DNA from: Siphonodentalium dalli
Lineage: Eukaryota; Mollusca; Scaphopoda; Gadilida; Siphonodentaliidae
Direction: 5' to 3'
DNA: 64,000 bases
NCBI GenBank assembly: GCA_032622095.1
Contig: CP136068.1
Span: forward strand, 131,571,989-131,635,988
The notes beneath the pieces were generated by a model. That model ran no database searches. It saw only the letters and a list, made by a program, of their open reading frames with translations, and was not told where the DNA came from. Position 1 is the first letter of the stretch. The number at the start of each line of letters is the position of its first letter. The translations under genes were made by a program, and so were the position numbers. This document shows positions 21,896 to 64,000 of the stretch, in pieces.

Positions 21896-21931
<36 letters not shown>

Positions 21932-24900: not shown

Positions 24901-27900
24901 ACATTGATGATTTCCTTGTACACGATATAAACAAGAACTCCCACCGTCACATCATCTTCGCCACCCCATTTCAACTGGATATACTACGACAGTCAAGACG
25001 TTGGTTCATAGACGGTACATTCAAGATAGTAGGCAAGCCATTTGGAAAGAATGCACAGTTGCTGTCAATCAACTGCTTTCATTTCAGCATGGCACCGAAG
25101 GATTAACAGCAAGTCTGGCCAACGCCTACTCTTGGGCTCCAAATAAACATGCATGCACGTTTATTATTTTCTTGGGAAATTTCCGCCCTGCACAGTGCTT
25201 AATTGGGTCTGCACGTTTATTAATTTTCAGGCTATGAAAATTGAAATCAGCACAAACTCAAGATTTCTATATGACTCTGATACCAAAATGATGAGTTTAT
25301 ATCTTTATGTATGTATATGACACACATGTCAGGGGGGGCCGGAAAAAAAACTGCAGGACACAACGTACCGGGGGGTGGGTACCTAGGCGTCAAAAATTTA
25401 CACGTAAATTTTTCCCCCTTATCCCCTTATTCATTTAGGGGGGGGGGGGGGGGTTGACGGAAAAAATTTGCATGTAATTTTGTTCAAAAAAATTTACACG
25501 TAAAACCGAGTTGGGGTAGATTTGATTTTTCTGGGGGGGGGGGGGGAGCAAATGGTCAGTGGAAAAAAACTGCAGTTTTTGCTGTTTTGGGGGGGGGGGG
25601 GGGGGGGGGGGGTTACCAAAACCGAAGAAAACAGTTTTTTCCACCCTGTGTCTGCAGTTTTTTTCCACCCCCACATTTAAATACTGAATAAAACACCACA
25701 TGACACATACCGTACTATGTTGATTCCTATACTTGACCTACACGAACTGTAAAAATAATATGTTTAACAGTTGATGTTTTGCTGAGAGTTTCCCCTGCAC
25801 TATTATTTGGGTCTGCACTTTTATTAACTTTCAATGAAATTTCCCCCCTGCACTATTATTGGGGCCTGCACTTTTATTTGGAGCCCGAGAGTATCATTCT
25901 ACAAGCTGGTGCCGATTCTTCAACTTGAAGCAGCCCATGTAGAAATTGCCGTTGCAGCCAGGGATCTCGAGACAGACGTGAGGAAGAAATACACAGAAAT
26001 AGATACGAAGAATTCCTGCAAGAAGTGACCAAGATCTACAGAATCGGCAAGGCAAAGAAATAAGAAGACAAGAAGATAACAAGACAAGACTATTAGTTGA
26101 TTTTGTATGTTTCAAATAAAAAATGCCGGTTATAAATGTATTTTAATTTGTTTTGTTTGTATTTCTGTTACACCTTATGTTATATCAGCTTGTGTAAATA
26201 TGTTTCATCCATTCTAATAAGTCTAATAAAATATGTCATTACTAAAAATGAGTTAATCAAGACCCTATAATCCCTCTAATTAGTTATTGTTACAACAAAG
26301 AATAAGTGCGCACACAAGCTTAGTCCCACATAAGCCGTAATCCCCAAGCCGTAATCCCTCCACTAATTAGTTAGATCAAACGACTGGCCGAATCTTCCCT
26401 GCCGAATCTTCCCTCCGCCGAAAAATACATGGCCGAATCTTCCCGTTCCCACCCCAGTAGCGTTCTTTAACGTGCACACACCGAGGAGTGTACACGGGTC
26501 AGCCATTAATGTCCGCGCCCGATCGGACAGCGTACTGCACCCACGACAACATACCAGGACAAGTGTTGTAATGGGGGGAAGTCGGCATTTTTGCATTCAG
26601 ATCTTTATTCAGTGATCTCGAATGAGACTTTTCAGCCTGACAAACTTGGTATCTGACCGAGTTCTGATTTTTATACGCCCTTTTGAAAAAAGTATAGTAT
26701 AGTATAGTATTGGTCTGTCCGTCCGGGCGTCCTAGCGTCCGTCCGTTAACCTGTTGTCCGGATGATAACTTTAGTTAGAGTGAACCAAAATTTGGTATGT
26801 GGGTTTATTAGCCGAAAAGTAAGTTCAAGTTCGAATTTGGGTTCCGCCCGCCAATTTTCACCGGAGTTATGCCCCTTATTTAACGTTTTTTGACTTAGAA
26901 AATCCTTGAAATTTGTTGTCCGGATGATAACTTTAGTATAGTTTATCGGAATGAATCCAAATTTGGTATATTACTTTCTCCCACCAAAACACAGGTCAAG
27001 TTCGAACTTGGGTCCTGTCCGACCATTTTTGGCAGAGTTATGCCCCTTTTTCGACTCTGAAAATTCAGTTTTTCTTATGTTTTTTGGTTTCCGGATGATA
27101 ACTCGATTTTGGAATGTTTATACGCAAAACTCGTTTTTTTGTGGATTACATATATCAAAATACAGCTCAAGTCCGAATTTCGTTTTAATCCGATAATTTT
27201 TGCGAGAGTTATGGCCCCTTTTTTGACGTAATTTGACTTAGAAAATCCCTGAAATTTGTTGTCCGGATGATAACTTTAGTTAGAGTGAACCGATTTCAAT
27301 CAAATTTGGTATGTGGGTTTATTAGGGGAAAAGACAGCTCAAGTTCGAATTTGGGTTCCGTCCGCCAATTTTCACCGGAGTTATGCCCCTTATTTGACGT
27401 AATTTGACTTAGAAAATCCCTGAAATTTGTTGTCCGGATGATAACTTTACTAGAGCTTATCGGATTCAATGATAATTTGGTATATTACTTTCTCCCTCCA
27501 AAACACAGATCAAGTTCAAATTTGAGTTCCGTCCGCCAATTTTTACCAGAGTTATTCCCCTTTTTTACCAGTTTCCGCCGACCCAAGAGAGGGCGTATAT
27601 TGCATGCCCAGCGTAGCTCTTGTTGTCAGAATACCCTGACCAGGTTGCGATCCCCGGTCCGATAGCACGAGAGACCAGTATGCTACCTCTCGGCCACCGA
27701 CTTCCCTTCTATCATCCTATCATATTATTATATATACATGTGTATATAAATTCATTATTAGCTATAACTTCCTTTTTAAAAACTTGATGCCCATCATTTA
27801 TCAGGGCTTTATATAATAATATAACTTATAAGTTTTATACATACATCATTACAATTACATGTAACTTGTAAGCCTTATATTATTATTTATATAAATAAAG

Positions 27901-42900: not shown

Positions 42901-45900
42901 TGTCAATGCCGGAACTTTATTATTATGTTAATTAGAATATAATTAACTCCAGCCGTTTTCGAGATAATTTTTCCTTGCTAAAATGTGACTATGTGATAAA
43001 AAGGATGTCAAATTCGTCGCAATTCTATACAAAATTTACTCACATTGAATCAAATTTAGTGCACTTGGTTAATAAATTTTATATAGAATTGCGACTCATT
43101 AGAGATCCTCTATTTATTACACCAGAATTTCAAGGCCATATCAAATCTCCATACACTCGCTACTTCACCATGAAATATTTATTATAACATTGTCTGACAT
43201 TGCAGGGACATACTGAGGACTATTTATGTGCCAAGGATGTCCGTAAATATATTATGGGTGATTTAAATATTCTTAATACCTCATAAATGTGGTTCGTACT
43301 AGTCTCCAAATGCACCCTACATGTAGGTGTATGAATTCGCCATGAATATTGATCAACAATCAATTACATTAAGGAATTCATAGTTTCAGTTTTTAACCAT
43401 TTCTATACTAAATGGATTCTCCCAATCTTCTATAAAAATACACATTAGAATGGTCTATTATTTATCCAAAAAAACAAGCAGATAGCAGATAATACTAGTT
43501 CAGCAGGAGTCTTATTTATTGGAGGGAAATGTTCAGATAATAAACTTCAACAAAGAACCTATTGTCGTTTGTTAAACTTATTAGCTGAGCATTTCCTAAT
43601 GGAACTACTCGTCAATGAGTATTTAGTATAGAAAGGGTTAACGCAGAGTTAATTTGGGCTCCATAATTTGAGCACCCATATGTTATAGGTATGAAAAAAG
43701 TCCGGACAGTCTCTGCATCCTTTTGTAGGGTGAAGGAGAAGATCTCTCGATCTTTTCGACCATCCTGGGGGATTCGCGCCCTACTACAATTTGTAGTGCA
43801 TCCCTTTAGATTGGTAGAAATATGGGCACATCAGGATTTGGGACAGACCACAGACCAGACCTATGATCAGGCTGACCATGGTTTGGCCTGGTGGGAGAAA
43901 ATATTGAAATTAAAAAAAGCTGCCAGTCAATTAAAGCCACCTTGTTCGGGTCTAGTGGCCTTCATTTTTTTTTTGCAAACAAGGCTTAGGTGACACTGTG
44001 TATCTCCAAGAAGATTTTGGTATATTATGGCCTACATCGTGCAGTGATGCCCTAAATAATCGACTCCTTAACCACAGCAGAATTATGGGTAAATTTTCAG
44101 GATTTAGTCGGAAATATGGCTTGTTGCCATTCATCGGAAAGCCCTCAGTGAGAGCTTTCCGATGAATGGCAACAAGCCATATTTCCAACTAAATCCGGAA
44201 AAATTACCCATAATACTGCTGTGGTTAAGGAGTCGATTATTTAGGGCATTACTGTAGCTTGTTTGTTAAATATAAGTATCAATCGCCACAAAGTAGGGAA
44301 TCCATTGCACTTGCATGAGTGTCAACTGTCAAGCCTTGAAATATGGTGTCTGTCATTCGCAGAATGAGGTCCCCAGAGGGTGAATTTAGAGATGCTACCC
44401 CGCATAGCAGGCTATCATCACCAAATTCACCCTCTGGGAACCTCATTCTGCTGAGGTGTAAGCAGAATGAGGTCCCCAGAGGGTGAATTTGGTGATGCTA
44501 GCCCGCTATGCGGGGTAGCATCACTAAATTCACCCTCTGTGGACCTCATTCTGCAAATGACAGACACCCTATATCAAGGCTTGTCAACTGTCACTGGGAT
44601 TATCATCCTTTCTGATAATGTTTTGCTCTTCACTAACACTGGTCTCAGTACTGAATTCCATTTCTATTATTATACCCACTGTTTAAAAAAAAGGGGAGTA
44701 TACTGTTTTGCACCCGTCCGTGCGTCCGTCCGTGGTTCCGTGCGTGGGGCTGTGTGTCCGTCCGTGTGTCCGATGTCTGTTCATATCATAACTTGAACAG
44801 TAGTGCTCGGATCTCAATGAAATTTGGTATGGATGTTAACTACTATGAGGACATTAAATAGAGGGTTCCATCGTTTTGTTCGGATTTTCCATTCTAGAGT
44901 TATTCATCTTTGTTTATCTGGAAATGTTGGATTTTTGGTCCATCTGGTGTCTGTTCATGTCGTAACTTCAACAGTTGTGCTGGGATCTCAATGAAACTCG
45001 GTATGGATGTTCACTACTATGAGGACATTAAAAAGAGGGTTCCATCGTTTTGTTCGGATTTTCCATTCTAGAGTTATACATCTTTGATTATCTGGAAATG
45101 TTGGCTTTTTGGTCTGTCTGGTGTCTGTTCATGTCGTAACTTCAACAGTTGTGCTGGGATCTTAATGAAATTTTGTGTGGAATTCACCACTATGAGGACA
45201 TTTAATGACACATTCAACTGTTTTGTTTTGGTTTTTTGTTCTATAGTTATTCATCTTTGTTTATATGAAAATGCTGATTTTTTGGTCCATCTGTCTGAGT
45301 ATAGCAGTCATAAGTTTTAGATATGCCCACACTAGGCAGTATGCCACAAGGGGGTATGCACCAGACAACAGTCCATCTCTTGTTATGTCAGTGAGGCTTT
45401 ATTATGTGCTTTACCCAATGTTCTAGGGTGGCCATGAACAATGTCTGAATATACATGTAGTTTGTATGACGTTAGCAGAATTAGGTTCCCAAAGGGTGAA
45501 TTTTGTGATGCTATCCCACACAGTCGGCTAGCATTACCAAATTCACCCTCTGATAACCTCATTCTGCTTAGGCCTCAACTGCTGTATGGGAGACCTAGGA
45601 TCAGATTCAAGTTCCAATGTTGAAGTGATTTTCGTCCATTAGTCACCTCAAATTATGTAATTTAACTTCGAAAAATTAGGGGAAATAGAAACCAAACAGA
45701 AGAGAAAAATTAACTAAAAACAATGTTAATTTGAGACTATAGATACTTCCCAGAAGATGAGGCCTAAGCAGAATGAGGTCCCCAGAGGGTGAATTTGGTG
45801 ACGCTGTTTGGTATAGCATTCACCTTCTGGAAACCTCATTCTGCAAATGTCCCTCACACTATATCCAGACTTGACCACAAAGTTTAAATGTATTCTTTTC

Positions 45901-48900
45901 AGGTCTGATGGTACAGTTTTATCTGTCAGGTCACTGAAGTTCCTACAGTTAGAACCGCAAGACCTGGAAGCCTTCGTAAATGTCCATAAAAACGCACCGC
46001 TCAAAAGACAGGTATGTGTTTTTATAATTAAATAATGCTGCTCATTCTTGGTAGTTCATACTTATTCTATACATTTTATCCATTGTTAATGTAAAACTTC
46101 AGGGTAATTTAACAATAAGTACTAGTTTATCTTTAATATGAAGAATAATTCAAAAGACATAAGGTATTGTGTTCTGATAAACTGACAAGCGGGTTCCCAG
46201 ATATTTTGAATATTGAGAGAATGTAGCATTCAACTAATATTGCTGAAAATTCCATTCACACTGTCGATTTGGCATTTCAGAAAACATAACATCTGAACTA
46301 TGCGTGATTGTAAATAATTACTCCTCAATTTGGGACGCATTTAGTGCTGACAACTAAATGCTCACAACAAAACCACACTGTCAGTAAAATGATTAAGTAT
46401 AATTATTTCTTTAATTTGATAATAAAAACCATGATTATATCTCATGGAAAATATGAATATATTGCCACCTGCTAAAGATGATATTATGCTGTCGTTTGTT
46501 TGTTATGAATGCAATCGCCATTTTAAAATATATATGTTTGTTACATCTACTGTTACCTCTGCTAAACTTAACCCTTCCATGATTGGAGCTTCCTGAAATT
46601 TGGCGAAAACCCTGTGCCAAAGCATTCTCTTATATATGCGAGTCTCCCGCATATATAAAAGAATGCATTGGCCTAAAAATATTTATCTTAACCTTTTAAG
46701 CCAGTATATTCTCTTATATATGAGAGACTTGCATATATAAGAGAATGCACTGGCACAGGATCTTTAATGCTGCAGCGCAGCTCCCATCATGAAAGGGTTA
46801 AATTGTCACACATATAAAAAATTCTCTACAGTTTTAATTTTATAAATAAATAAATGTTTGCAGACTGTGATAACCTGTTTAGCGACGTTAAAGAAATCGC
46901 ACGCTGATGAAGACTCTATTAGCTGCTTGATTCTCGGGACGGAAAATAACGCTGTGTATGTCTTGGATCCAGAAGCTTTCACAGTTCTTGCGACGGTAAC
47001 TCCTTTTTAGAGTATGCTTCTACCTGATATAATGGATTATTATCTACTGACAATCACTCTTGCATGGTTCATGTTCAGACCTCTAAACATGGTGCCATGC
47101 ATTTGCCATATATTTATGTCTGTCTGTCTGTCATCTGCTTATATCTCGTGATCATTCCTCCAAATGAATAATAGACCATTCCAATGTATCTTTTATAACA
47201 AGAAGGGAGAATCAGTAAAGAAAGGGTTAAAATTGATGTCTCATATTTACCGACTTTCAAAAATTTTGATAGACTTCTCCCTTCCCATGACAAGTTTTCG
47301 TATAAGCCTGAATTTTGACACACTAAATTCTAGACACACTAAATTCAGGCTTGTTTTCATCTATTTGATCCAGACTGTATACTTCTTTTTAGATGGATTT
47401 ACCGAGTGTACCAGTTTTCCTGAGTGTGAGTGGACTTTATGATGTCGAGTATCGCATTGTTGTTGCCTGCAGGAATGGATGTATTTATACTTTGAAAAGG
47501 TAAATGTTTTGTTTTAAGAAGTCGATAATATTCATCAAATTAATGTTGTTTTAAAACAATTTTAATCTGAAGGAAAAGACAAAATGGGGGAAAAATAAGA
47601 AAACAAAATTAAAACTGGAGTTTTTATATTAAAAATTAGAATGAAAGAAGTCAAGACAGAAAAGTAGAAAAAATGAAGAAAACACTGCAGAAATTCGAAA
47701 AAAAAAGACACCTAATATATTCAATGGTAACTATGAAACAAATAAATTAATTTGAGTTGAGGATGTATGCTAAATGGACACACATATACATTATACCCAA
47801 ATTGGTATTTTCCTGATCTTTTTCCTCACATTTACTAGATAACGTTATCTGAGAAGTTTCTGTATTTGCAACGTAACCACAATTAATTAACGATGTTAAT
47901 TGGGTTACATTTAGCACACATCATGTAAAAACTATGTCCAGAACGGGCATGAACTCAAGACACCTAATAAATTTCTTGGACAAGTTTGCATATAATGTAC
48001 CATTATGTTGATACATTTGCCTGAAAATTGTATGAGAATATCACAACGACGAGGGTTCTATTCATAGCTAGTGATGAGCCGATAATCGGGAACGACAATC
48101 GGAATCGGCCGATTGTGGCCCATCGGATGACAATCGGTACTCGGGTTTCAACATCGGCATTTCCGATTGTCTAAATAAAAATCAGGTGCTTGTTTTTCTT
48201 CAATAAACTGTTTTAAATATGACGATGTTTTGTTGAATAATTGACCAGTAAACATGGGGAAAGTGATTTACCAAACACAAACTTGATATACAGGCATGTC
48301 CTCTTCAATACCCTGGCCGTACCTGGGTCTATGTTTGAACAATATATTACAGTGGGGATCGCCGGGAAGCATGTGACACTTTGGGTTAGAGCCAGGCTGC
48401 GATGATGACGCCGTGATTGCGCATAATAATAAATTATATGATGATGTACATGTACACAAATTACATCTCATGGGACTCATGTACGCCGATACTTAATTTA
48501 TTGTTCGTCAACATGTAGACATTTTGATTTATGTATGTCAGACTATCAAAAATCAAAATGTATGCATACGCAGCACAACAAATCTATCTATATAGTACAC
48601 ACAGTGTAAAACAGGTATAAACTGTAGAAACCGAAAGTGCATGTCATGTGATATTTAATTGCGCAGCTGACTTCACTGTTTGTTCAATTAAATTGAGCAT
48701 GTTATAACATGTGTATCAGTTGTCAGGACGGAAGAATAAAAACTGTACAAGCATTAATAGTCAGATATTAAAAAGAATTAAAGAAATTTATTTATTTATT
48801 TTACTATCTGTAATTAATCTTTTCAAAGTCTTTCACCCAACACAACTTTCCATTAATGATTAACTTTAAATAGTCGAAGACATTGTCATTCCATCCGGTC

Positions 48901-51900
48901 AGCCTCGTGTGACGTCACATATAGGTCACCACCAATGATTATTTTGATGACCATGCCGAAATCGACAATCAAATCGTGTCTGCGAAATTGACATGAACAT
49001 GGTGTAACTTGCAACTAGTTCAGTCGGCTCATTTCCTTTGATGTGATGTCTTTGAATTGGGTTCAAAGAAAAATGCCGTTTGATGACTTGGGGTCAAAAA
49101 CGGACCGTGGATATGTTGTCATGCACTTGGCTACATCAAACTTTCAAACAATTTGTTGTGGAATAGCCTAGAATACATGGGTAAGTTAATGCATTGCATC
49201 GTCGATTCGTCGATACAATACATTACAATAAATACACCGAGGCCCCGTACCACAGCCTCTGCAGGAAATGTGCCTGTATTCGATCACAAGTCCGCCCATA
49301 TCTACCTATATACTTAACCAAACATATACTTATGTATACTGTGTACTGGCATATTACTACGGTTGTTGCTTGCTTCTATTTCTAAGTATTATATAACACA
49401 TATAACATATTCTGGTATAATTATTACAATAATCGGAATCGTTCACTTGAATCGGCCGATTGTGATCTCAAATAATCGGCAATTGGCGCAAGGCTCTATT
49501 TGACAATCGGCTCATCACCATTCATAGCATTCCGGTTTGGCTGCTCCTTAAATTTTTAGTCGAGTTTTTTTTTCCGGACGGGCGGGCGGGCGACGTGTTT
49601 TGCTTATAACTCAACCGTTTATTGATGGATTTTTTTTGGTGTGTGAGTACATATCCATGCACGTAAGCTGCAGACAAAAAATCGGGTTCGTCCGCTCATT
49701 TATTACAGAGTTATGGCCCTTTGCCATTTTTCACTGATTTTAGGCTCGTTAGCGCAACAACTTCAACAAACGTTATCTGATTCGATTGAAATTTGGTATA
49801 TAGGTGTCTCCCAAGAATATCTCGGACGAGTTCGAAAACCGGCCTGGTCCGATAAAATTTGATAGAGTTATGGCCCTTAATTAGTCATTTTTCACGAATT
49901 TTCAGCTCGTTAGCGCGATAACTTCAACACACGTTATCCGATTTGATTGAAATTTGGTATATAGGTGTCTCCCAAGAATATCTCGAATGAGTTCGAAAAC
50001 CGGCCTGGTCCGATAAAATTTGATAGTTATGGCCCTTAATTAGTCATTTTTCACGAATTTTCAGCTCGTTAGGGCGATAACTTCAACAAACGTTATCTGA
50101 TTTGATTGAAATTTGGTATATAGGTGTCTCCCAAGAATATCTCGGATAAGTTCGAAAACCGGCCTGGTCCGATAAAATTTGATAGAGTTATGGCCCTTAA
50201 TTAGTCATTTTTCACGAATTTTCAGCTCGTTAGCGCGATAACTTCAACAAACGTTATCCGATTTGATTGAAATTTGGTATATAGGTGTCTCCCAAGAATA
50301 TCTCGGATGATTTCGAAAACCGGCCTGGTCCGATAAAATTTGATAGAGTTATGGCCCTTAATTAGTCATTTTTCACGAATTTTCAGCTCGTCAGCACGAT
50401 AACTTCAACAAACGTTATCCGATTTGATTGAAATTTGGTATATAGGTGTCTCCCAAGAATATCTCGGATGAGTTCGAAAACCGGCCTGGTCCGATAAAAT
50501 TTGATAGAGTTATGGCCCTTAATTAGTCATTTTTCACAAATTTTCAGCTCGTTAGCGCGATAACTTCAATAAACTTTATCCGATTAGATTGAAATTTGGT
50601 ATATAGGTGTCTCCCAAGAATAACTCGGTCGAGTTCGAAAACCGGCCAGGTCCGATAAAATTTGATAGAGTTATGGCCCTTAATTAGTCATTTTTTTTCA
50701 CGAATTTTCAGCTCGTTAGCACGATAACTTCAACAAACGTTATCCAATTTGATTGAAATTTGGTATATAGGTGTCTCCCAAGAATATCTCGGACGAGTTC
50801 GAAAACCGGCCTGGTCCGATAAAATTTGATAGAGTTATGGCCCTTAATTAGTCATTTTTCATGAATTTTCAGCTCGTTAGCGCGATAACTTCAACAAACG
50901 TTATCCGATTTGATTGAAATTTGGTATATAGGTGTCTCCCAAGAATATCTCGGTCGAGTTCGAAAACCGGCCAGGTCCGATAAAATTTGATAGAGTTATG
51001 GCCCTTAATTAGTCATTTTTTCACAAATTTTCAGCTCGTTAGCGCGATAATTTAACAAACATCATCCTATTTGATTGAAATTTTGATATATAGGTGGCTC
51101 CCAAGAATACCTCGGACGAGTTAGAAAACCGGCCCGGTCCGATAAAATTTGATAGAGTTATGGTCCTTAAGTAGTCATTTTGTACGAATTTTGAGCTCGT
51201 TAGCGCGATAACTTCAACAAACGTCATCCGATTCAACTAAAATTTGGTATATAAGTGTCTTCCAATAATATCCTGGACGAGTTCGAAAACCAGCCTGGCC
51301 CAATAAAATTTGATAGAGTTATGGCCCTTAATTAGTCATTTTTCGTGAATTTTTAGCTCGTTAGCGCGATAACTTCAACAAACGTCCTCCGATTTGTTTA
51401 AAATTTGGAATAGACATACTTGCCAAGGATATTTCGGATGAGTTCGAAAACCAGCCTGGCCCGATAAAATTTGATGGAGTTATGGCCCTTAATTAGTCAT
51501 TTTTCGAATTTACCTATTAATTAGTCTACCGATACTGATGCACACCAATTGGCGGTAGCCACCGGCGGTAAGCCACCGAAAACGAGACACAGGATCTCTG
51601 ATGCCACCTCTTGTTTTTATTCCCGTCAGTTCATACTCAGATAGTGAAAGTTAGCAGACTTTGGTTGACTAACATGTTTTATTCCAGAGGAATGTCCATT
51701 TCCATTGGTACTCACACTTGCGGCGTATTGGTAAAATTCTTGTTGTTACTTCAGGCAAAACAAATCACTCAAATAATGAAAATTTGAGTATTGTCCCCCT
51801 TCGACGAATAATAAGCGAGGCTGGTTTGGTCGGATTATTCGTTTAGAACTGTTTGGGAACATCCATTAGGAGCGAATTTGTTAATTATCATTCTTGATGG

Positions 51901-60900: not shown

Positions 60901-63900
60901 ATATTGTTTAAAATAACGAGAACATAATGCACATGAATCGCGTGACATCATCAGGTGGCGTCTTCTTACGCGACACGTAAATTCTCTCATTGAATCAGCT
61001 AAGTACATCTCTTTCGTTTAAGTTTATTTGTACATCCTACATCCTATTCGAATATATCAATATGACCAGTGGGATATGTGCTACAAGAATATGCCGATGG
61101 TCGAGCACATTTGAATTTTTTCACATTTACCCTCTGTAAGCACCTTATGTCTCTTCAACCCTGATGTGGTTATAGGGTTTGGTTTGTTCTATGATATATA
61201 CATATTATCATGCCAACTTGAGAAGATGAGATTCCAGAGGCTGCGAGTCTGATCCAGTATCTCACCTTCTCAACGAGACGTGATGTGGAGACCAATATCA
61301 CCTTACTGCAGTGATATTAAATGTGTTTATTATATTAGATAGAGGAAATGACTTTCGCTGACAAATTCACACAATTACCCAGAAATATCAGGAAATATCC
61401 CATAATAATAGATTGTAACTAGTACTTGGGACCATATTTTTTCACAAATTGTTGATGGGGAATTTCCCTTGGTATCCATGGGAGGAAGGATATCACACAT
61501 ACCACATATGAATCGAATACATAATCGAGTCATTGCTATATTTAGATTTAAATTAGGTCTGTCGACCAGCCTCGTTCTCATTCAGAGTTGCATGATATGA
61601 AATCGGAAAAGCAGTGTCGTTTCCGATGATCTGGAAAACTTGACCAAAATATGCCATATTTTGAAAAGAAAAATCAGTCATGTAATAAAATATTCATTTT
61701 TTTTTTCTTCAGATGGTGGCCTTCTCATTAAAATCTTGAAAAGGAATGCCACATTTCAAGAGAAAGACATGAACATCGGTCCACCAGCAGCTCAGAATAT
61801 TAAACTGAACATACCGAAGAAAACAAAACTATTTGTGGACCAGACAATGAGGGAGCGAGAGAATGGAGTCAGTACGTAGTGACTAGACAATGAGGGAGCA
61901 AGAGGATAATGAGGGAATGAGAGAATGTAGTCAACAAGTAGTGACTAGAGCAAGAGAGAGTGGGAGGATAATGAGAGAGTGGGAGAATAATGAGTGAGTG
62001 GTAGGATAATGAGAGTGGAGGATAATTAGGGAGTGGGAGGATATGGGAGAGTGGGAGGATAATGAGAGAGTGGGAGGATAATGAGAGAGTGGCATGATAA
62101 TGAGAGAGTGGGATGATAATGAGAGTGGGAGGATAATTAGATAGTGGGAGGATAACAAGAGAGTGAGAGGATAATTAGAGAGTGGGAGGATGAGAGAGTG
62201 GGGGATAATTAGAGAGTGGGAGGATGAGAGAGTGGGGGGATAATGAGAGAGTGGGAGGATAATGAGGGAGTGGGAGAATAATTAGAGGGTGAGCGGTGAG
62301 AGTGGGGGGATAATGAGCGTGGGAGGTTATTTAGAGAGTGGGCGGATAATGAGAGAGTGGGAGGATAATGAGAGAGTGGGAGGATAATGAGCGAGTGGGA
62401 GGATGAGAGAATGGGAGGATAATGAGAGTTGGATGATAATTAGAGAGTGGGAGGATAATGAGAGTTGGATGATAATTAGGGAGTGGGGGGATAATGAGGG
62501 GAGTGGGAAGATACTGAGGGAATGGGAGGATGAGGGAGTGGGATGATAGTGAGAGGATAATGAGAGTGGGAGGATAATGAGGGAGTGGGAGGATAATGAG
62601 AGAGTGGGAGGATAATTAGAGAGTGGGAGGATAATTAGAGAGTGGGAGGATAATTAGAGAGTGGGAGAATAATTAAGAGAGTGGGAGGATAATTAGAGAG
62701 TGGGAGAATAATTAGAGAGTGAGAGGATAATGAGAGAGTGTGAGGATAATTAGAGAGTGGGAGAATAATTAGAGAGTGAGAGGATAATGAGAGTGGGAGG
62801 ATGAGAGAGTGGTATGATAATGAGGGAGTGGGAGGATGGAGAGAGTGGGATTATAGTGAGAGGATAATGGGCGTGCAGGATAATGGAGTTAGTAAGTGGA
62901 GACCCGACCCGAGAGTGAGGATGAGAGGGTCAGTAAGTAGTGATTAGACAATGAGAGAGTGAGAGGATAATGAGAGAGTGGTAGGATAATGAGCGAGTGG
63001 GAGGATACTGAAGTCAGCAATTATTGACTAGAGCATGAGAGAGGGGGGATAATGAGAGTGGGAGGATAATGAGAGAGTGGGAGGATGAGAGAGTGGGAGA
63101 ATATTGAGAGTGGGAGGATAATGAGCGAGTGGGAGGATATTGAAGTCAGCAATTATTGACTAGAGCATAGAGAGGGGGGGTAATGAGAGAGTGGAAGGAT
63201 AATGAGAGAGTGGGATGATGAGAGATTGGGATAATGAGCGAGCAGGAGATTGGAGTTAGCGAGTAGTGACTAGAACATGCGAGCAGTAGGATGAGAGAGT
63301 GGGAGGATAATGAGAGAGTGGGATGATAATGAGGGAGCAGAAGCCAAACCATAATATTGAGGCCTATGCACATTATTTTGTTAGTTGAAATGTTTAAGAT
63401 AGGGAGGGTTGATTTTAAAGAGTTGGCAGTATTTTCCATGTCTTGGTGTGCGTGGTACAGATTGAAGATTAGAGGTGTTCATCGTGCTTTTAAAACTTAA
63501 AAGGAGGAAACCTTCCATAATATTTTACACTGCTGTCCGTCCATGTAGATTTCTCAGTCATGGTTTTATCAGACCTTAATGAAATTTATATGGAGTGCTT
63601 TCAAAATAGTACCCAATGACATTGTTTGCATTTTCCATTTTAGAATTATCCTTCTTTATTTATCTGGAAATAAAAAAAATTTGTCTGTCCACCTGAGTAC
63701 CTCAGTGTAACCTCCTGTTTGCTATAAAAGGCCCTCTGCTTTACCAGAAATTTGTCTGAATGATCATGAGTATCAAAGCTTCTAATATTTCCATTTCAGT
63801 GATGCACAGAACATTCCAGAGAGACTTATATCTCCTGAGACTCCATGCAGCCAGGGCATACGTCAAGGCTCTACAGAACAGCATGAATCCAATATCCTCA

Positions 63901-63933
63901 GATCCATCAGAACCCATCAAATTCTCTGCACAG
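19064..63933 (+). CDS. BBS1: BBS1, BBSome subunit 1 (12 coding exons, 3' end beyond window)
   Basis: BBS1 is a core subunit of the BBSome, the coat-like complex that carries membrane proteins into and out of cilia; its beta-propeller binds the GTPase ARL6/BBS3. Twelve exons join with matching phases into 486 codons: 19064-19101, 32490-32656, 36553-36642, 38920-39044, 42575-42621, 45903-46011, 46864-46995, 47393-47499, 52558-52678, 56558-56786, 61713-61871 and 63800-63933. Landmarks seen: WLDAYYDP (residues 19-26), [76 protein letters not shown] and DLYLLRL. The final roughly 100 residues (the C-terminal GAE-type region) lie past 64000. All introns are GT-AG. They contain most of the transposons in this window, and none breaks an exon. 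Confidence 0.95.
19333..20518. mobile_element. Nested 1.2 kb palindromic transposon
   Basis: It sits in the left arm of the foldback with an 8 bp duplication, CGAATGTA, at 19325-19332 and 20519-20526. The ends are GGGACACACTATAAAGTG and the exact mirror CACTTTATAGTGTGTCCC. The arms mirror each other for about 400 bp, so a 68-codon frame appears on the minus strand at 19341-19547 and again, nearly identical, on the plus strand at 20307-20510. These frames look like by-products of the palindrome. Each arm also repeats the CACTATAAAGTGTAT...GGCCGGCTCCAA motif about 210 bp further in. Confidence 0.88.
21516..21615. repeat. Hairpin in the centre of the foldback
   Basis: GATATCCCACAG-CCC-TGGCACAATA from 21516 is mirrored by TATTGTGCCAGGGACCTGTGGGATATC ending at 21615, with a loop of about 30 bases. 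It may be a further small insertion. Short frames on both strands follow from the symmetry. Confidence 0.7.
21897..21931. repeat. Poly-C tract, 35 bases
   Basis: An uninterrupted run of C inside the foldback centre. Its length in the assembly may be uncertain. Confidence 0.9.
22307..23011. mobile_element. Non-autonomous hAT-like transposon nested in the foldback
   Basis: The ends CAGGCCTGGCATTCTGAG and mirror CTGAGAATGCCAGGCCTG are flanked by GGTCAG at 22301-22306 and 23012-23017. Removing it restores the foldback unit (CGTGGTCAG joined to GCAGTCAGGGG). The CAGG ends resemble hAT elements. The duplication visible is 6 bp rather than the usual 8. No transposase frame. Confidence 0.72.
24394..26028 (+). 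pseudogene. FLYWCH zinc finger plus MULE transposase remnant
   Basis: A MULE transposase cuts and moves its own element. The first part (to 24549) ends in [12 protein letters not shown] and [10 protein letters not shown], the Cys and His-x-His half of a FLYWCH zinc finger. A GT-AG intron (24550-24698) leads to [12 protein letters not shown] and then [16 protein letters not shown] and [10 protein letters not shown], whose Asp (codon 25011-25013) is the expected first catalytic residue of the DDE fold. The frame breaks at about 25100 and a TA-flanked transposon interrupts it at 25129-25891. [10 protein letters not shown] resumes at about 25895, and the frame ends at 26028 with later catalytic residues missing. 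It is not functional. Confidence 0.75.
25129..25891. mobile_element. TA-flanked MITE inside the MULE gene
   Basis: TA at 25127-25128 and 25892-25893 flanks ends CTCTTGGGCTCCAAATAAA and mirror TTTATTTGGAGCCCGAGAG (one mismatch). Near each end are repeats of CTGCACTTTTATT or its variant. The centre holds several long poly-G runs (25438-25454, 25532-25547, 25590-25612). TA duplication points to the Tc1/mariner group. No transposase. Confidence 0.82.
26672..27606. mobile_element. Tandem-repeat element bounded by TACGCCC/GGGCGTA, period about 171 bp
   Basis: Five modules begin at about 26752, 26914, 27086, 27257 and 27428 with GTCCGGATGATAACTTTA or a variant. Each continues AAATTTGGTAT, GTTCGAATTTGGGT, a GTCCGCCAATTTT stretch and GAGTTATGCCCC. 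TACGCCCTTTTGAAA at the left and GAGAGGGCGTATA at the right form imperfect inverted ends. Such elements are widespread in mollusc-type genomes; no coding capacity. Confidence 0.7.
27783..27924. repeat. Long hairpin in intron 1
   Basis: CTTGATGCCCATCATTTATC followed by AGGGCTTTATATAATAATAT at 27783 is mirrored by the sequence ending GATAAATGATGGGCATCAAG at 27924. The loop is AT-rich and itself partly symmetric. Probably a small MITE. Confidence 0.75.
28288..28675 (+). mobile_element. MITE with CCCTGCTGGACAAAACAAGT ends, copy 2
   Basis: TA (28286-28287) and TA (28676-28677) flank CCCCACTGGACAAAACAAGT and the mirror ending TTGTTTTGTCCAGCAGGG. The interior repeats GGCCGAACGGCAAGTACACC and relatives. 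The frames through it come from that repeat. Confidence 0.82.
29867..30998. mobile_element. 1.1 kb palindromic transposon with TTAA ends
   Basis: TTAA at 29863-29866 and 30999-31002 flanks AGGATTACCCGGTATAATTT and the mirror ending CACCGGTGTACTCCT. Further mirror blocks include TTTTTCTCAGTCATTATC, GGCATCAGATGTCTTAAAAG facing CTTTTAAGACATCTGATGCC, and GCATTTATT-type blocks near the centre. No transposase. A fragment of similar sequence lies near 42180-42310. Confidence 0.8.
31182..31559 (+). mobile_element. MITE with CCCTGCTGGACAAAACAAGT ends, copy 3
   Basis: Same family and orientation as 28288-28675, with TA flanks at 31180-31181 and 31560-31561. Ends are CCCTGCTGGACAAAACAAGT and TTTTGTCCAGCAGGG, with interior GCGGCCGAACGGCAAGTACA repeats. 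Confidence 0.83.
32021..32470. mobile_element. GAATGAGG-family palindromic MITE, copy 2
   Basis: It begins AAGCCTGCAAATAGTGTGTC and ends with the mirror GCACTAAACTCAAGCTT. The two small terminal palindromes (GCAGAATGAGGTTCGCAGAT... and ...GACCTCATTCTGCAAATGAC) and the central CTAGGTCTCCCATAGCAGTT phrase identify the family. It ends about 20 bp before BBS1 exon 2. Confidence 0.8.
32490..32656 (+). CDS. BBS1: BBS1 coding exon 2
   Basis: Residues 13-69. The first propeller blade region shows [16 protein letters not shown] and [11 protein letters not shown], close to the vertebrate WLDAHYDP and GEYKLVVGDLG motifs. Acceptor CATTACAG, donor G|GTGAGC, phase 1 at the end. A MITE ends about 20 bp before the exon and another begins 10 bp after it. 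Confidence 0.95.
32666..32861. mobile_element. CAGTAATGCC mariner-like MITE, copy 1
   Basis: TA flanks (32664-32665, 32862-32863) surround ends CAGTAATCCCCTAAATAATC and the mirror GATTATTTAGGGCATTACT. The arms are near-perfect inverted repeats meeting at AAGCTCTAACTGAGC. It starts 10 bp after the exon 2 donor. Confidence 0.85.
33195..33404. mobile_element. CAGTAATGCC mariner-like MITE, copy 2
   Basis: TA on both sides (33193-33194, 33405-33406). Ends CAGTAATGCCCTAAATAATC and GATTATTTAGGGCATTACTG, arms mirrored throughout, centre GAGAGCTTTCCGATGAATG. Confidence 0.87.
33643..34285. mobile_element. TAGCTCAAC-bounded tandem-repeat element, short copy
   Basis: TAGCTCAACTTTATTTTG at the left is mirrored by CCAAGTTGAGCTA at the right. 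Between them are three modules of about 160 bp starting CACGGGCTACAGGTCGTA or close variants, each with ATCATGAAATTTGTCATGG, GACATGTAGATGGGAACGAG and GCCATCTTGGAT. A longer copy of the family lies at 57041-60174. Confidence 0.78.
34616..36234. mobile_element. CCCTTTCATGA piggyBac-like MITE split by a later insertion
   Basis: TTAACCCTTTCATGACAGGG at 34616 and GTGCCAGTGCATTCTCTTAT match the family at 46572 and 56136. The copy is interrupted at 34702-36116 by a TA-flanked element. It resumes with TATAAGAGAACGCATTG and CCAATATATTCTCTTATATA, but its right end is degraded. Confidence 0.6.
34702..36116. mobile_element. TA-flanked 1.4 kb transposon nested in a MITE
   Basis: TA at 34700-34701 and 36117-36118 flanks CTGTTATGCCCTAAGTAAAT and the mirror ATTTACTTAGGGCATAACAG. 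Subterminal zones are packed with AACCGCGGTTA, AACTGCGGTTA and GCGTTTAAA-type words, perhaps transposase-binding sites. No transposase motif is seen in the AT-rich centre. Confidence 0.82.
36235..36387. mobile_element. Short piggyBac-like MITE
   Basis: TTAA (36231-36234) precedes CCCTTTCAGTGCCAAGTCCG. The mirror CGGACTTGGCACTGAAAGGG closes it, with TTTTAA just beyond. The arms pair over nearly the whole length (AAATATGGGTTGATACAAAA facing its reverse complement). Confidence 0.8.
36553..36642 (+). CDS. BBS1: BBS1 coding exon 3
   Basis: Residues 69-99, including [10 protein letters not shown] and NEPRTP, matching the vertebrate EPRTP motif. Acceptor follows a long T tract and CAG; donor is CAG|GTATGG. 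Phase 1 at both ends. Confidence 0.93.
37412..38104. repeat. Direct duplication, about 390 bp spacing, in intron 3
   Basis: 37412-37715 and 37806-38104 share AATGCTTACTTTT, ATAATTCTCC or AGAATTCTCC, GACAACTCATA, ATATGGGTGA, CCGTAGTCTATAAATCTTC, ACCGGTTG, GCGACATTTTGAATCAAA and ATGATCCAGGAAT in order. The surrounding sequence (37160-38680) also resembles the ends of the TTAA element at 11634. Confidence 0.7.
38404..38470. repeat. Two copies of a perfect 24 bp palindrome
   Basis: A 24 bp perfect palindrome centred on GGATATATCC with arms GGGAAAC and GTTTCCC occurs at 38404-38427 and again at 38447-38470, each followed by GTCCT. It lies in intron 3. Function unknown. Confidence 0.85.
38920..39044 (+). 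CDS. BBS1: BBS1 coding exon 4
   Basis: Residues 99-140, with [19 protein letters not shown] and [12 protein letters not shown], among the most conserved stretches of BBS1. The acceptor is TTTTGAAG, weaker than its neighbours. The nearer T-rich TTTTTAG at 38888 would create an immediate stop. The donor is GAG|GTGAGA, phase 0. Confidence 0.94.
39142..40228. mobile_element. GAATGAGG-family MITE, copy 3, split by an insertion
   Basis: It starts AAGCCTGAATTTAGTGTGTC and ends AAATGACAGACACACTAAAT then AAGACTT. Family palindromes are visible at both ends. It is interrupted at 39317-39933 and resumes in register. Confidence 0.75.
39317..39933. mobile_element. 617 bp insertion with 15 bp target duplication
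   Basis: TAACATTGCTTTTAG at 39302-39316 is repeated exactly at 39934-39948, and removing the insert restores the host MITE. A 15 bp duplication suits a retroposed sequence. Inside, GTGGTTCAGTGGATACAGTG (from 39627) resembles the A box of a tRNA promoter, but the following B-box-like part (GTCCATGAGTTAAAG) is poor and there is no long A tail. GCGGGTAT words recur through it. SINE nature is therefore only a suggestion. Confidence 0.6.
40270..40622. mobile_element. piggyBac-like MITE (CCCTTTACCCAACA ends), copy 1
   Basis: TTAA at 40266-40269 and 40623-40626 flanks CCCTTTACCCAACA and TGTTGGGTAAAGGG. The interior contains two palindromes of about 72 bp built from GCCAATGCATTCTCTTATAT, GCGAGTCGACCATAGGTCGC and their mirrors. 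TTAA targets and CCC ends are typical of piggyBac. Confidence 0.85.
40985..41345. mobile_element. GAATGAGG-family MITE, copy 4, right end truncated
   Basis: GCAGAATGAGGTTCCCAGAG at the left and AGCAGAATGAGGTCCCAGAG near 41308 are the two family palindrome starts. The last mirror half is missing and TTAATTGGAGGG-type sequence follows. Confidence 0.65.
41378..41826. mobile_element. TTAA-flanked MITE (AGGTACT ends)
   Basis: TTAA at 41374-41377 and 41827-41830 flanks AGGTACTAAATCCGAT and mirror ATTCGGATTGAGTACCT. A related partial copy (CCAATTTAACCCCCCAAAA, TTTGATTCGA or TTTATTCGAT, AACCTCAGAGC) lies at about 53240-53360. Confidence 0.72.
42575..42621 (+). CDS. BBS1: BBS1 coding exon 5
   Basis: A 47-base exon encoding residues 141-156 ([15 protein letters not shown]). 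It corresponds to the vertebrate DRIDP...LKEMLE segment. Acceptor ATTTCAG, donor AG|GTAAAT, end phase 2. Confidence 0.9.
43397..43637. mobile_element. TTAA-flanked MITE (CCATTTCTATACTAAAT ends)
   Basis: TTAA at 43393-43396 and 43638-43641 flanks CCATTTCTATACTAAAT and mirror ATTTAGTATAGAAAGGG. Half-copies of the right end occur at about 38790-38820 and 41865-41897. Confidence 0.72.
44042..44254. mobile_element. CAGTAATGCC mariner-like MITE, copy 3
   Basis: Ends CAGTGATGCCCTAAATAATC and GATTATTTAGGGCATTACTG, arms mirrored throughout. The left flank has TG where TA is expected (44040-44041); the right flank is TA (44255-44256). Confidence 0.85.
44331..44582. mobile_element. GAATGAGG-family MITE, copy 5, with 10 bp target duplication
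   Basis: GTCAACTGTC at 44321-44330 is repeated at 44583-44592. The ends are AAGCCTTGAAATATGGTGTC and the mirror GACACCCTATATCAAGGCTT. This short copy (252 bp) lacks the long central spacer and shows the family's cleanest borders. A 9-10 bp duplication suggests Mutator-type mobilisation. Confidence 0.85.
44670..45380. mobile_element. Tandem-repeat element, period 174 bp
   Basis: TATACCCACTGTTTAAAAAA and a GTCCGTCCGTG stretch lead into three modules. Their TAACTT starts lie at 44789, 44963 and 45137, exactly 174 bp apart. Each contains GGGATCTCAATGAAA or a variant, TTGGTATGGATGTT, ACTATGAGGACATT, TTTTCCATTCTAGAGTTAT and ATCTGGAAATGTTGG. It ends near GGGGGTATGCACC. No coding support. Confidence 0.72.
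45440..45882. mobile_element. GAATGAGG-family MITE, copy 6
   Basis: Left palindrome AGCAGAATTAGGTTCCCAAA, right end CCTCATTCTGCAAATGTCCC, central TGTATGGGAGACCTAGGATC. It ends just upstream of BBS1 exon 6. Confidence 0.75.
45903..46011 (+). CDS. BBS1: BBS1 coding exon 6
   Basis: Residues 156-192, with [16 protein letters not shown] and LKRQ, matching the vertebrate LRFLQLE...MEAFVNQHK...IKRQ pattern. Acceptor TTTTCAG, donor CAG|GTATGT, phase 0 end. A GAATGAGG-family MITE finishes about 20 bp before it. Confidence 0.94.
46572..46797. mobile_element. piggyBac-like MITE (CCCTTCCATGA ends), copy 1
   Basis: TTAA at 46568-46571 and 46798-46801 flanks CCCTTCCATGATTGGAGC and GCTCCCATCATGAAAGGG. The interior holds two GCATTCTCTTATATATG-type palindromes. 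It lies 66 bp before exon 7. Confidence 0.84.
46864..46995 (+). CDS. BBS1: BBS1 coding exon 7
   Basis: Residues 193-236, with [25 protein letters not shown] and [12 protein letters not shown]. These are propeller-blade strands matching [21 protein letters not shown] of vertebrates. Acceptor TTTGCAG, donor ACG|GTAACT, phase 0. Confidence 0.95.
47393..47499 (+). CDS. BBS1: BBS1 coding exon 8
   Basis: Residues 237-272, with [12 protein letters not shown] and [18 protein letters not shown]. Acceptor TTTTTAG, donor AG|GTAAAT, phase 2. The following intron (5.1 kb) holds a hAT relic and the 160 bp tandem array. Confidence 0.95.
48069..49520. mobile_element. Non-autonomous hAT transposon in intron 8
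   Basis: TTCATAGC at 48061-48068 and 49521-49528 is a perfect 8 bp duplication. The ends TAGTGATGAGCCGATAATCG and the mirror CAATCGGCTCATCACCA are of the hAT type. Inside both ends are repeats of AATCGGCCGATTGTG. No transposase reading frame remains in its 1452 bp. Confidence 0.88.
49560..51530. repeat. Tandem array, about 12 units of 160 bp
   Basis: Each unit reads AGCTCGTTAGCGCGATAACT, TCAACAAACGTTATCCGATT, GAAATTTGGTATATAGGTGT, CTCCCAAGAATATCTCGG, GTTCGAAAACCGGCCTGGTC and GATAGAGTTATGGCCCTTAA. The central units are nearly identical and the first and last are diverged. This suggests expansion or homogenisation by unequal exchange. A leader with GGACGGGCGGGCGGGCG (about 49573) and a tail near 51530-51610 look like the ends of a mobile element. 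Confidence 0.88.
52558..52678 (+). CDS. BBS1: BBS1 coding exon 9
   Basis: Residues 272-312, with [16 protein letters not shown] and [15 protein letters not shown], matching vertebrate CIELSAQPVGL. Acceptor TTTCAG, donor AAG|GTAAAA, phase 0. Confidence 0.94.
52738..53180. mobile_element. GAATGAGG-family MITE, copy 7
   Basis: CTGCAAATAGTGTGTCTGTC starts it and GACACACTATTTGCAG ends it. Both terminal palindromes and the central TGCTATGGGAGACTTGGGAT phrase are present. It lies 60 bp after exon 9. Confidence 0.82.
53959..54323. mobile_element. piggyBac-like MITE (CCCTTTACCCAACA ends), copy 2
   Basis: Same family as 40270-40622 in the opposite orientation, with TTAA at 53955-53958 and 54324-54327. 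The right TTAA is also the left TTAA of the next element. Confidence 0.85.
54328..54841. mobile_element. TTAA-flanked MITE (ACAGGTCAGGC ends)
   Basis: TTAA (54324-54327 and 54842-54845) surrounds ACAGGTCAGGCACACCCTGA and the mirror TCAGGATGTGCCTGACCTG. The ends also share GAATTCCACTATTATAG and its mirror. It abuts the previous element directly. No transposase. Confidence 0.78.
54845..56095 (+). repeat. Second copy of the 14700 dispersed repeat, split by about 0.9 kb
   Basis: 54845-54940 and 55865-56095 carry the same ordered words as 14700-15010. The intervening sequence (about 54940-55865) has no recognised gene or clear inverted ends. Confidence 0.6.
56136..56391. mobile_element. piggyBac-like MITE (CCCTTCCATGA ends), copy 2
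   Basis: TTAA at 56132-56135 and 56392-56395. Ends CCCTTCCATGACCATTGC and GCTCCCATCATGAAAGGG. Two inner palindromes of the GCATTCTCTTATATATGCGA type. Confidence 0.85.
56558..56786 (+). CDS. BBS1: BBS1 coding exon 10
   Basis: Residues 313-389, with [26 protein letters not shown] and [16 protein letters not shown]. Met385 here appears to correspond to human Met390, the residue changed in the common M390R Bardet-Biedl allele (correspondence by motif, from memory). Acceptor ATTCCAG, donor A|GTTAGT, phase 1. Confidence 0.95.
57041..60174. mobile_element. TAGCTCAAC-bounded tandem-repeat element, long copy
   Basis: TAGCTCAACTTTACTTTG at the left and CCAAGTTGAGCTA at the right bound it. Five modules of about 163 bp start near 59297, 59461, 59655, 59817 and 59980 with CACGGGCTACAGGTCGTA or variants. 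A 1280 bp insertion at 57168-58447 splits its left part. Confidence 0.75.
57168..58447. mobile_element. Mariner-like non-autonomous transposon, TA target
   Basis: TA at 57166-57167 and 58448-58449 flanks CCGTACTGACCCGCGTTTA and the end GAACCGGGTCAGTACGG. Excising it restores the host phrase GGATCATTATGAAATTTGTC. Subterminal GTGGGCTTAAAC words recur at both ends. No transposase. Confidence 0.88.
61713..61871 (+). CDS. BBS1: BBS1 coding exon 11
   Basis: Residues 389-442, with [31 protein letters not shown] and [12 protein letters not shown]. The donor is A|GTACGT. Choosing this donor rather than GTAGTG four bases later keeps the frame into the exon 12 [14 protein letters not shown] motif. The exon's 3' end is echoed in the minisatellite that follows. 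Confidence 0.93.
61872..63345. repeat. Minisatellite filling intron 11, about 19 bp unit
   Basis: The basic unit is GAGAGTGGGAGGATAATGA with many small variants (TTAGAGAGTGGGAGGATAA, GATGAGAGAGTGGG), repeated for about 1.45 kb. At intervals it contains longer words similar to the end of exon 11 and the start of intron 11, such as GTCAGTAAGTAGTGATTAGA (62930) and GGAGTTAGCGAGTAGTGACT (63251). The long minus-strand frames rich in SLIILPLS are by-products of the repeat. Confidence 0.92.
63515..63735. repeat. Single relic module of the 174 bp tandem-repeat family
   Basis: GTCCGTCCATG, CAGACCTTAATGAAATTTAT, AATGACATTGTTTGCATTTTCC, TTTTAGAATTAT and TATCTGGAAAT follow the same order as the modules at 44789-45300. 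It ends 65 bp before BBS1 exon 12. Confidence 0.6.
63800..63933 (+). CDS. BBS1: BBS1 coding exon 12
   Basis: Residues 442-486, with [20 protein letters not shown] and EPIKFSAQ, matching vertebrate [20 protein letters not shown]. Acceptor ATTTCAG, donor CAG|GTACCC, phase 0. The remaining exons fall outside the window. Confidence 0.94.
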
Positions 63934-64000
63934 GTACCCTCACAGTTTTCTTGATCGATATAATGCACCAAATGACCAATACACTTGGAATTTTGACAGC

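Follow-up and report, generated by a model that had tools for sequence, protein, structure and literature searches.

A minisatellite in intron 11 of a scaphopod BBS1 gene that appears to have grown from the exon 11 splice junction

Results and discussion

The BBS1 gene and its exon 11 donor

The stretch of DNA analyzed here (hereafter the window) comprises 64,000 nucleotides of Siphonodentalium dalli and lies on contig 8 of a 2.2-Gb assembly of nine contigs. Eleven collinear tblastn matches to human BBS1, beginning at human residue 20, run along the forward strand from 32497 to 63930; two of the eleven matches are weak (E 0.014 and 2.5). Exon 11 (61713–61871, + strand) and exon 12 (63800–63933, + strand) were placed by tblastn and by their joined peptide, for which two solved BBS1 structures' sequences were matched, 6vbu (E 2.7e-34) and 6xt9 (E 3.9e-34). 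Exon 11 ends in phase 1, its last 11 residues (letters not given here) being followed by a single A, and exon 12 is preceded by the acceptor TTTCAG and followed by the donor GTACCC at 63934. Because the A at 61871 and the TG at 63800 complete an ATG codon and keep the frame, we place the exon 11 donor at GTACGT, position 61872. The first-pass annotation of this DNA had set it 4 nt further downstream, at 61876, which disagrees with the frame and the exon 12 acceptor; donors at 61868 or 61876 were both rejected, as either breaks the BBS1 reading frame. The exon number given there is right, provided that one more first exon lies upstream. The exon 11 boundary is intact beside the array described below, frame and phase joining exon 12.

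The end of exon 11 encodes the residues DQTxREREx(G), which are common to human and bovine BBS1, and the seed of the array is in this sense conserved coding sequence. A protein search of the 2.2-Gb genome with exon 11, run for a second BBS1 copy, returned one locus only. With the exon peptides no Pfam family passed the cut-off, one PLD-like match (E 0.096) falling below it. Elsewhere in the window, a 161-bp satellite (49707–51505; 11.2 copies, 91% matches) is flanked by the BBS1 exons matched at 47393 and 52556, and there are homopolymer runs of 35 C (21897–21931) and 24 G (25589–25612). An inverted-repeat stretch, CCAGAGGGTGAATTTAG...AAATTCACCCTCTGG, is similar at 44359–44554 of the window and at about 1870–1960 of locus L035, and is possibly a small mobile element.

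Layout of the intron 11 array

Directly 3' of exon 11 lies a 1.5-kb minisatellite in which the exon end and its donor occur together six times in diverged form. The seed, delimited by a profile of these six intronic copies, consists of the last 29 nt of exon 11 and the first 14 nt of intron 11 (61843–61885, + strand); in the alignment of the seven copies, exon 11 bases 5' of 61843 are unmatched in the array. The first repeat unit after the donor (61886–61904, + strand) is identical to the exon block 61843–61861 at 18 of 19 positions. The recurring words that had been pointed out earlier were all found in place or within about one base, with GACAATGAGGGAGC occurring again at 61886. Tandem Repeats Finder reported a 19-bp minisatellite at 61954–63219 (+ strand; 66.8 copies, consensus GAGAGAGTGGGAGGATAAT, 72% matches), as well as a 62-bp repeat at 61846–61988 and short arrays up to 63337 (one row being 63291–63337). 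The sense strand of the array is strongly purine, with a GC skew of 0.71–0.98 in seven 200-bp intervals across 61900–63299.

All six junction copies are on the + strand. Copy J1 (61904–61953) has ACAAGT at the donor position. J2 (62862–62911) and J3 (62908–62953), the latter a partial copy with the least significant profile match of the six (E 3.4e-6), have GTAAGT donors at 62892 and 62933; donor-like GTAAGT had been noted in some array copies before, the second at 62932. J4 (62984–63036) and J5 (63116–63168) share the same 23-nt core and have GCAATT, and J6 (63229–63278) has GCGAGT. The GT is kept in two of the six intronic copies, with GC in three and AC in one. At donor position +4, all six have A and the exon donor has C. 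The exon part of the composite copies is as long as 29 nt and the intron part at least 14 nt, i.e., the repeat unit lies across the exon–intron boundary. At the distal end of the array (63291–63340, + strand), the last unit ends in the exon-like bases AATGAGGGAGCAG (63328–63340). The array terminates in exon-like rather than intron-like bases, an end not expected from one simple tandem duplication.

Junction copies compared with chance

Within the array, matches to the 23-nt junction core lie at 61927, 62885, 62926, 63010, 63142, and 63252, each with 17–19 of 23 positions equal to the exon; on the + strand of window positions 1–61829, the best match to this core is 15/23. When the 43-nt exon-plus-donor query was aligned with the array it scored 51, compared with maxima of 34 for shuffled queries (0/1000 as good) and 33 for shuffled arrays (0/200). 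Shorter queries were weaker, the 23-nt junction part being equalled by 1/1000 shuffles and the 14 intron bases by 29/1000. We also built a profile from the six intronic copies, leaving the exon out. With the array cut away, this profile found 61844–61887 at E 1.1e-8 (the last two bases of the match come from the flank joined on after removal of the array), and the next match in the window had E 6.8; against the whole window, the exon junction was found at E 7.9e-10. Our results show that the copies are homologous to the junction, and this profile match, the two sets of shuffles, and the copy alignment lend good support to the view that the array is an expansion of the junction between exon 11 and intron 11.

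Local repeats are common in the window, where 85 of 1227 43-mers score equally high against their next 1460 bp, and the adjacency of similar DNA is therefore not unusual by itself. With regard to an origin from a dispersed satellite, a search of the 2.2-Gb genome with a 149-base query of seed and first units, by a method that skips very common words, gave 12 matches, all within the BBS1 array.

The 19-bp unit

The 19-bp consensus agrees with the exon block 61843–61861 at 15 of 19 positions, and scores as high were reached by 121/5000 shuffled consensus units and by 7/1110 purine-matched 20-mers of the window. Against the pure 19-bp section, the 27-nt exon tail was equalled by 96/5000 synonymous codings and 38/1000 purine-matched codings, and against the whole array by 17/5000 and 11/1000, respectively. 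Identity to the exon block is 18/19 in the first unit after the donor and 16/19 in the second, and averages 12.1/19 over 77 mechanically phased units. By these identities, the first two units bridge the exon and the array consensus. Tested by itself, the earlier derivation of the 19-bp unit from the words of the exon end is only suggestive.

If a purine-rich satellite came by accident to adjoin an exon end that is itself rich in purines, the two could look similar by chance or by composition, and the bare 19-bp unit, which fits the exon only at the ~0.6–4% level of several nulls, leaves some room for this: for the 19-mer alone, chance similarity was not fully rejected. It was rejected, however, for the composite copies, by the shuffles and the leave-exon-out profile, since these copies include the donor stretch, which is not purine-only, and far outscore both the shuffled sequences and the remainder of the window; the near-identity of the first unit to the exon block also speaks against it. 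We consider a chance or compositional likeness to be exceedingly improbable. Our argument for a junction origin rests on the composite copies together with that first unit, the 19-mer alone being weaker.

Junction copies at other exons of the genome

Similar events have occurred at other exons. We sampled 145 exon loci of kinesins, myosins, and SNF2 proteins in this genome and found local copies that span a splice junction at 19 of them (~1/8), with splice points read by eye from the edges of Pfam matches. For kinesins, the best 30 among 123 matches were taken, and 60 of the remaining 93 were added, with likely paralogue copies and the weakest matches left out; the myosin loci were the 30 best of 85 matches; and the 25 SNF2 loci, of 73, were the first 28 rows minus three long matches with many stops. 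At the 120 kinesin and myosin exon loci, taken with 400 bp on each side, we counted as an echo any exon-edge or exon 43-mer that recurred nearby with a score of at least 36. Echoes were present at 21/120 loci and at 0/120 shuffled loci. Read by eye, 17 of the 21 echoing loci span a junction, 14 on the donor side (including L110, a near-whole exon copy) and three on the acceptor side; the other four are exon fragments (L025, L026, L105) or intron only (L111). Among the 17, L015 and L115 are weak, with four and six exon bases in the copy, L114 depends wholly on the by-eye reading, and L042 and L044 are paralogues at each of which one of two alignment rows lies inside the exon. All 14 donor-side loci have a copy spanning the splice point, and 13 have GT in at least one copy; the corresponding acceptor-side figure is 2/3. 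In the SNF2 sample, 2/25 loci have junction copies, both on the acceptor side. The excess of donor over acceptor copies (14 vs. 3 in kinesins and myosins, but 0 vs. 2 in SNF2) is suggestive only. An earlier, looser scan of 60 loci had found an echo of some central 43-mer in 23, reduced to 6 of the 23 once overlap with the coding match was required.

Within BBS1 itself, 2/11 donors (exons 6 and 11) and 0/11 acceptors stand out in a junction scan, for which junctions were taken from tblastn ends that are in several cases 1–2 bases off and more so for the exon 6 acceptor; the exon 4 acceptor has no AG, neither it nor the exon 6 acceptor is placed with certainty, and the exon 12 donor has almost no intron in the window. 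The exon 6 donor region (46001–46027, + strand; exon end at 46011) is echoed once in intron 6, at 46150–46180 (+ strand), with 25 of 31 aligned columns identical and the GT kept (score 30, 0/300 shuffles).

Some kinesin arrays are far more regular. At L086 (G000:C2:63734958-63735973; also L152), the exon end encoding ...MNLVDLAG, with CAG|GTAACT at the splice point, recurs as a 34-bp unit in 39 copies including that of the exon, 38 of them with GT. At L084, the exon tail TTACTCAAA plus GTATGT forms a 30-bp unit, with 15 copies including the exon and GT in 13. Both counts come from short motif searches, and degenerate copies may therefore be missed. Three paralogous kinesin genes on contig 7 of the assembly (G000; loci L084, L151, L153, L154) share the 30-bp array with 15, 12, and 15 copies, which suggests that copy number changes. 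These kinesin arrays look like young versions of the old and diverged state that BBS1 appears to represent.

Several further features were observed at the sampled loci. All three contig 7 arrays end alike, in an exon-like tail and then ACCTTG. At L068, L092, L100, L112, and L148, junction copies are repeated two or three times, many of them near-identical; the acceptor copies of L148 are identical at 78/78, 74/78, and 69/76 positions. Many closely similar myosin head exons occur on contig 4 of G000 at 172–291 Mb, as if from a large muscle myosin family.

Background rate of local duplication

Duplication in the flanks offers a baseline for these counts. Echoes of 43-mers were more frequent in flanking sequence (1669/18000) than at exon edges or in exons (294/5976), with 167/4296 for wholly coding 43-mers, and pseudo-exons placed in the flanks echoed about as often (46/234) as did exons (21/120). 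Since duplication is about as frequent in the flanks, exon edges seem to be caught up in a general process of tandem duplication that acts locally. On these counts, exon edges do not look like special targets of duplication, and exons may be partly protected from it. Tentatively, and with somewhat more doubt than belief, we suggest that junction-spanning local duplications are pervasive in the genes of this animal, that some have become arrays of dozens of near-identical donors, and that expression relies on a positional first-donor rule; in the same tentative reading, donor-side copies are perhaps tolerated more than acceptor-side ones, because it is the acceptor copies that would be encountered first.

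Decoy donors and splicing

The authentic exon 11 donor is likely to be the one in use, because it is the 5'-most and terminates the conserved exon. We infer that this first donor is used and that the array is neutral. An in-frame TAG lies just past the donor, at 61877–61879, so that reading on into the decoy donors would truncate the protein.

It is also possible that the array is functional, with the copies at 62892 and 62933 used as alternative donors and the longer exon 11 forms degraded or regulating the BBS1 level, much as in human IFI6. The authentic donor is indeed weak: with a splice-site matrix, it scores 63.3, and at least 21 of 114 scored downstream GT/GC sites rank higher, as counted among the top 22 of these 114. 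Human IFI6 isoforms, according to passages of one report (PMC4526556), take downstream repeat units as donors. Retained use would not be expected, however, to leave GT in only two of six junction copies, and the TAG would cut the protein short in any extension of exon 11. Amphioxus mirages, in the passages of PMC3087553 that concern them, are also said to leave splicing undisturbed. We therefore regard a function in alternative splicing as unlikely. The BBS1 copies may also be a fossil record of the donor, given the A at +4 in 6/6; since the exon has C there, a change must have come about either in one founder copy or, at a later time, in the donor of the exon.

Origin and direction of the array

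Exon 11 is the likely source of the array, given that the residues encoded at its end are also found in human and bovine BBS1, and, as far as this conservation can tell, the seed very likely predates the array. The reverse polarity, in which the array is the older part and exon 11 captured its end from it, draws on the same likeness and adjacency of exon and array, which by themselves carry no direction. The coding conservation with mammalian BBS1 argues against it, as does the sharp stop of the similarity inside the exon at 61843, and we hold it to be very improbable.

Our preferred reading is that the array is very probably a minisatellite of the mirage type that grew, inside intron 11, from the end of exon 11 and its donor. 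The order of events that we infer would begin with a tandem duplication around the exon 11 donor, by which ~29 nt from the exon side and 14 nt from the intron side were copied into the beginning of intron 11. The purine block that came from the exon, with its imperfect internal repeat (AATGAGG...AATGGAG), would then have expanded to the 19-bp units, and whole junction blocks would have been copied a few further times. Lying within intron 11, the array is probably spliced out with it, and the downstream junction copies would behave as fossil or decoy donors. On this reading, the BBS1 array is an old example of the general local duplication in which exon edges, too, are caught.

Comparison with known systems

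The BBS1 array belongs to a known kind, the mirage; what this genome adds is how widely the kind has spread and how regular some of its donor arrays are. A conserved exon followed by as many as 39 near-identical donors amounts to a natural experiment on the choice among equal splice sites, a choice that regular donor arrays make testable. If such arrays are common outside amphioxus, junction duplication would be a wider source of intron lengthening, of decoy sites, and possibly of new introns. In the literature searched, mostly papers outside subscription, we found no clear further junction-spanning minisatellite beyond the systems discussed here, and the term "mirage(s)" for minisatellites occurred only in lancelet work, a pine paper having the word just in a reference title.

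A human minisatellite with multiple splice donors, that of IFI6 (6-16), was reportedly the subject of Turri et al. 1995, going by the cited title. It is like BBS1 in being an array with repeated donors, as passages of a report describe (PMC4526556). Its downstream repeats serve as donors, whereas the BBS1 donor copies are putative, being read from the genome. Passages on an earthworm metallothionein gene (PMC12783039) describe intronic minisatellites and fourth-exon duplications absent from the transcript; spanning of a junction is not stated in those passages (PMC12783039), and we take this case as a lead rather than a match. What a paper on chicken MUC2 says of repeats (PMC3549977) has no bearing on such arrays.

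Amphioxus mirages are reported to be (PMC3087553) minisatellite-like tandem duplications across an exon–intron boundary, found in the globins BflGb6 and BflGb9 and in Adh3, to which parts of a further paper add troponin C and PGBD5 (PMC3902484). They vary in length and retain some splice signals, reportedly without disturbance of splicing (PMC3087553). The same report proposes that amphioxus globins gained introns from mirages by tandem duplication of splice sites (PMC3087553). The BBS1 case is like that model in having splice signals within the duplicated stretch, but unlike it in that an existing intron was lengthened and no new one arose. The BBS1 array resembles the mirages, as there described, in its boundary-spanning units and in that many but not all copies carry GT or AG. 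It differs from them in being more diverged, in the dominance of a 19-bp exon-derived sub-unit, and in being known from sequence alone; it also comes from a different animal, with a 2.2-Gb assembly in which up to 39 units lie at a kinesin exon.
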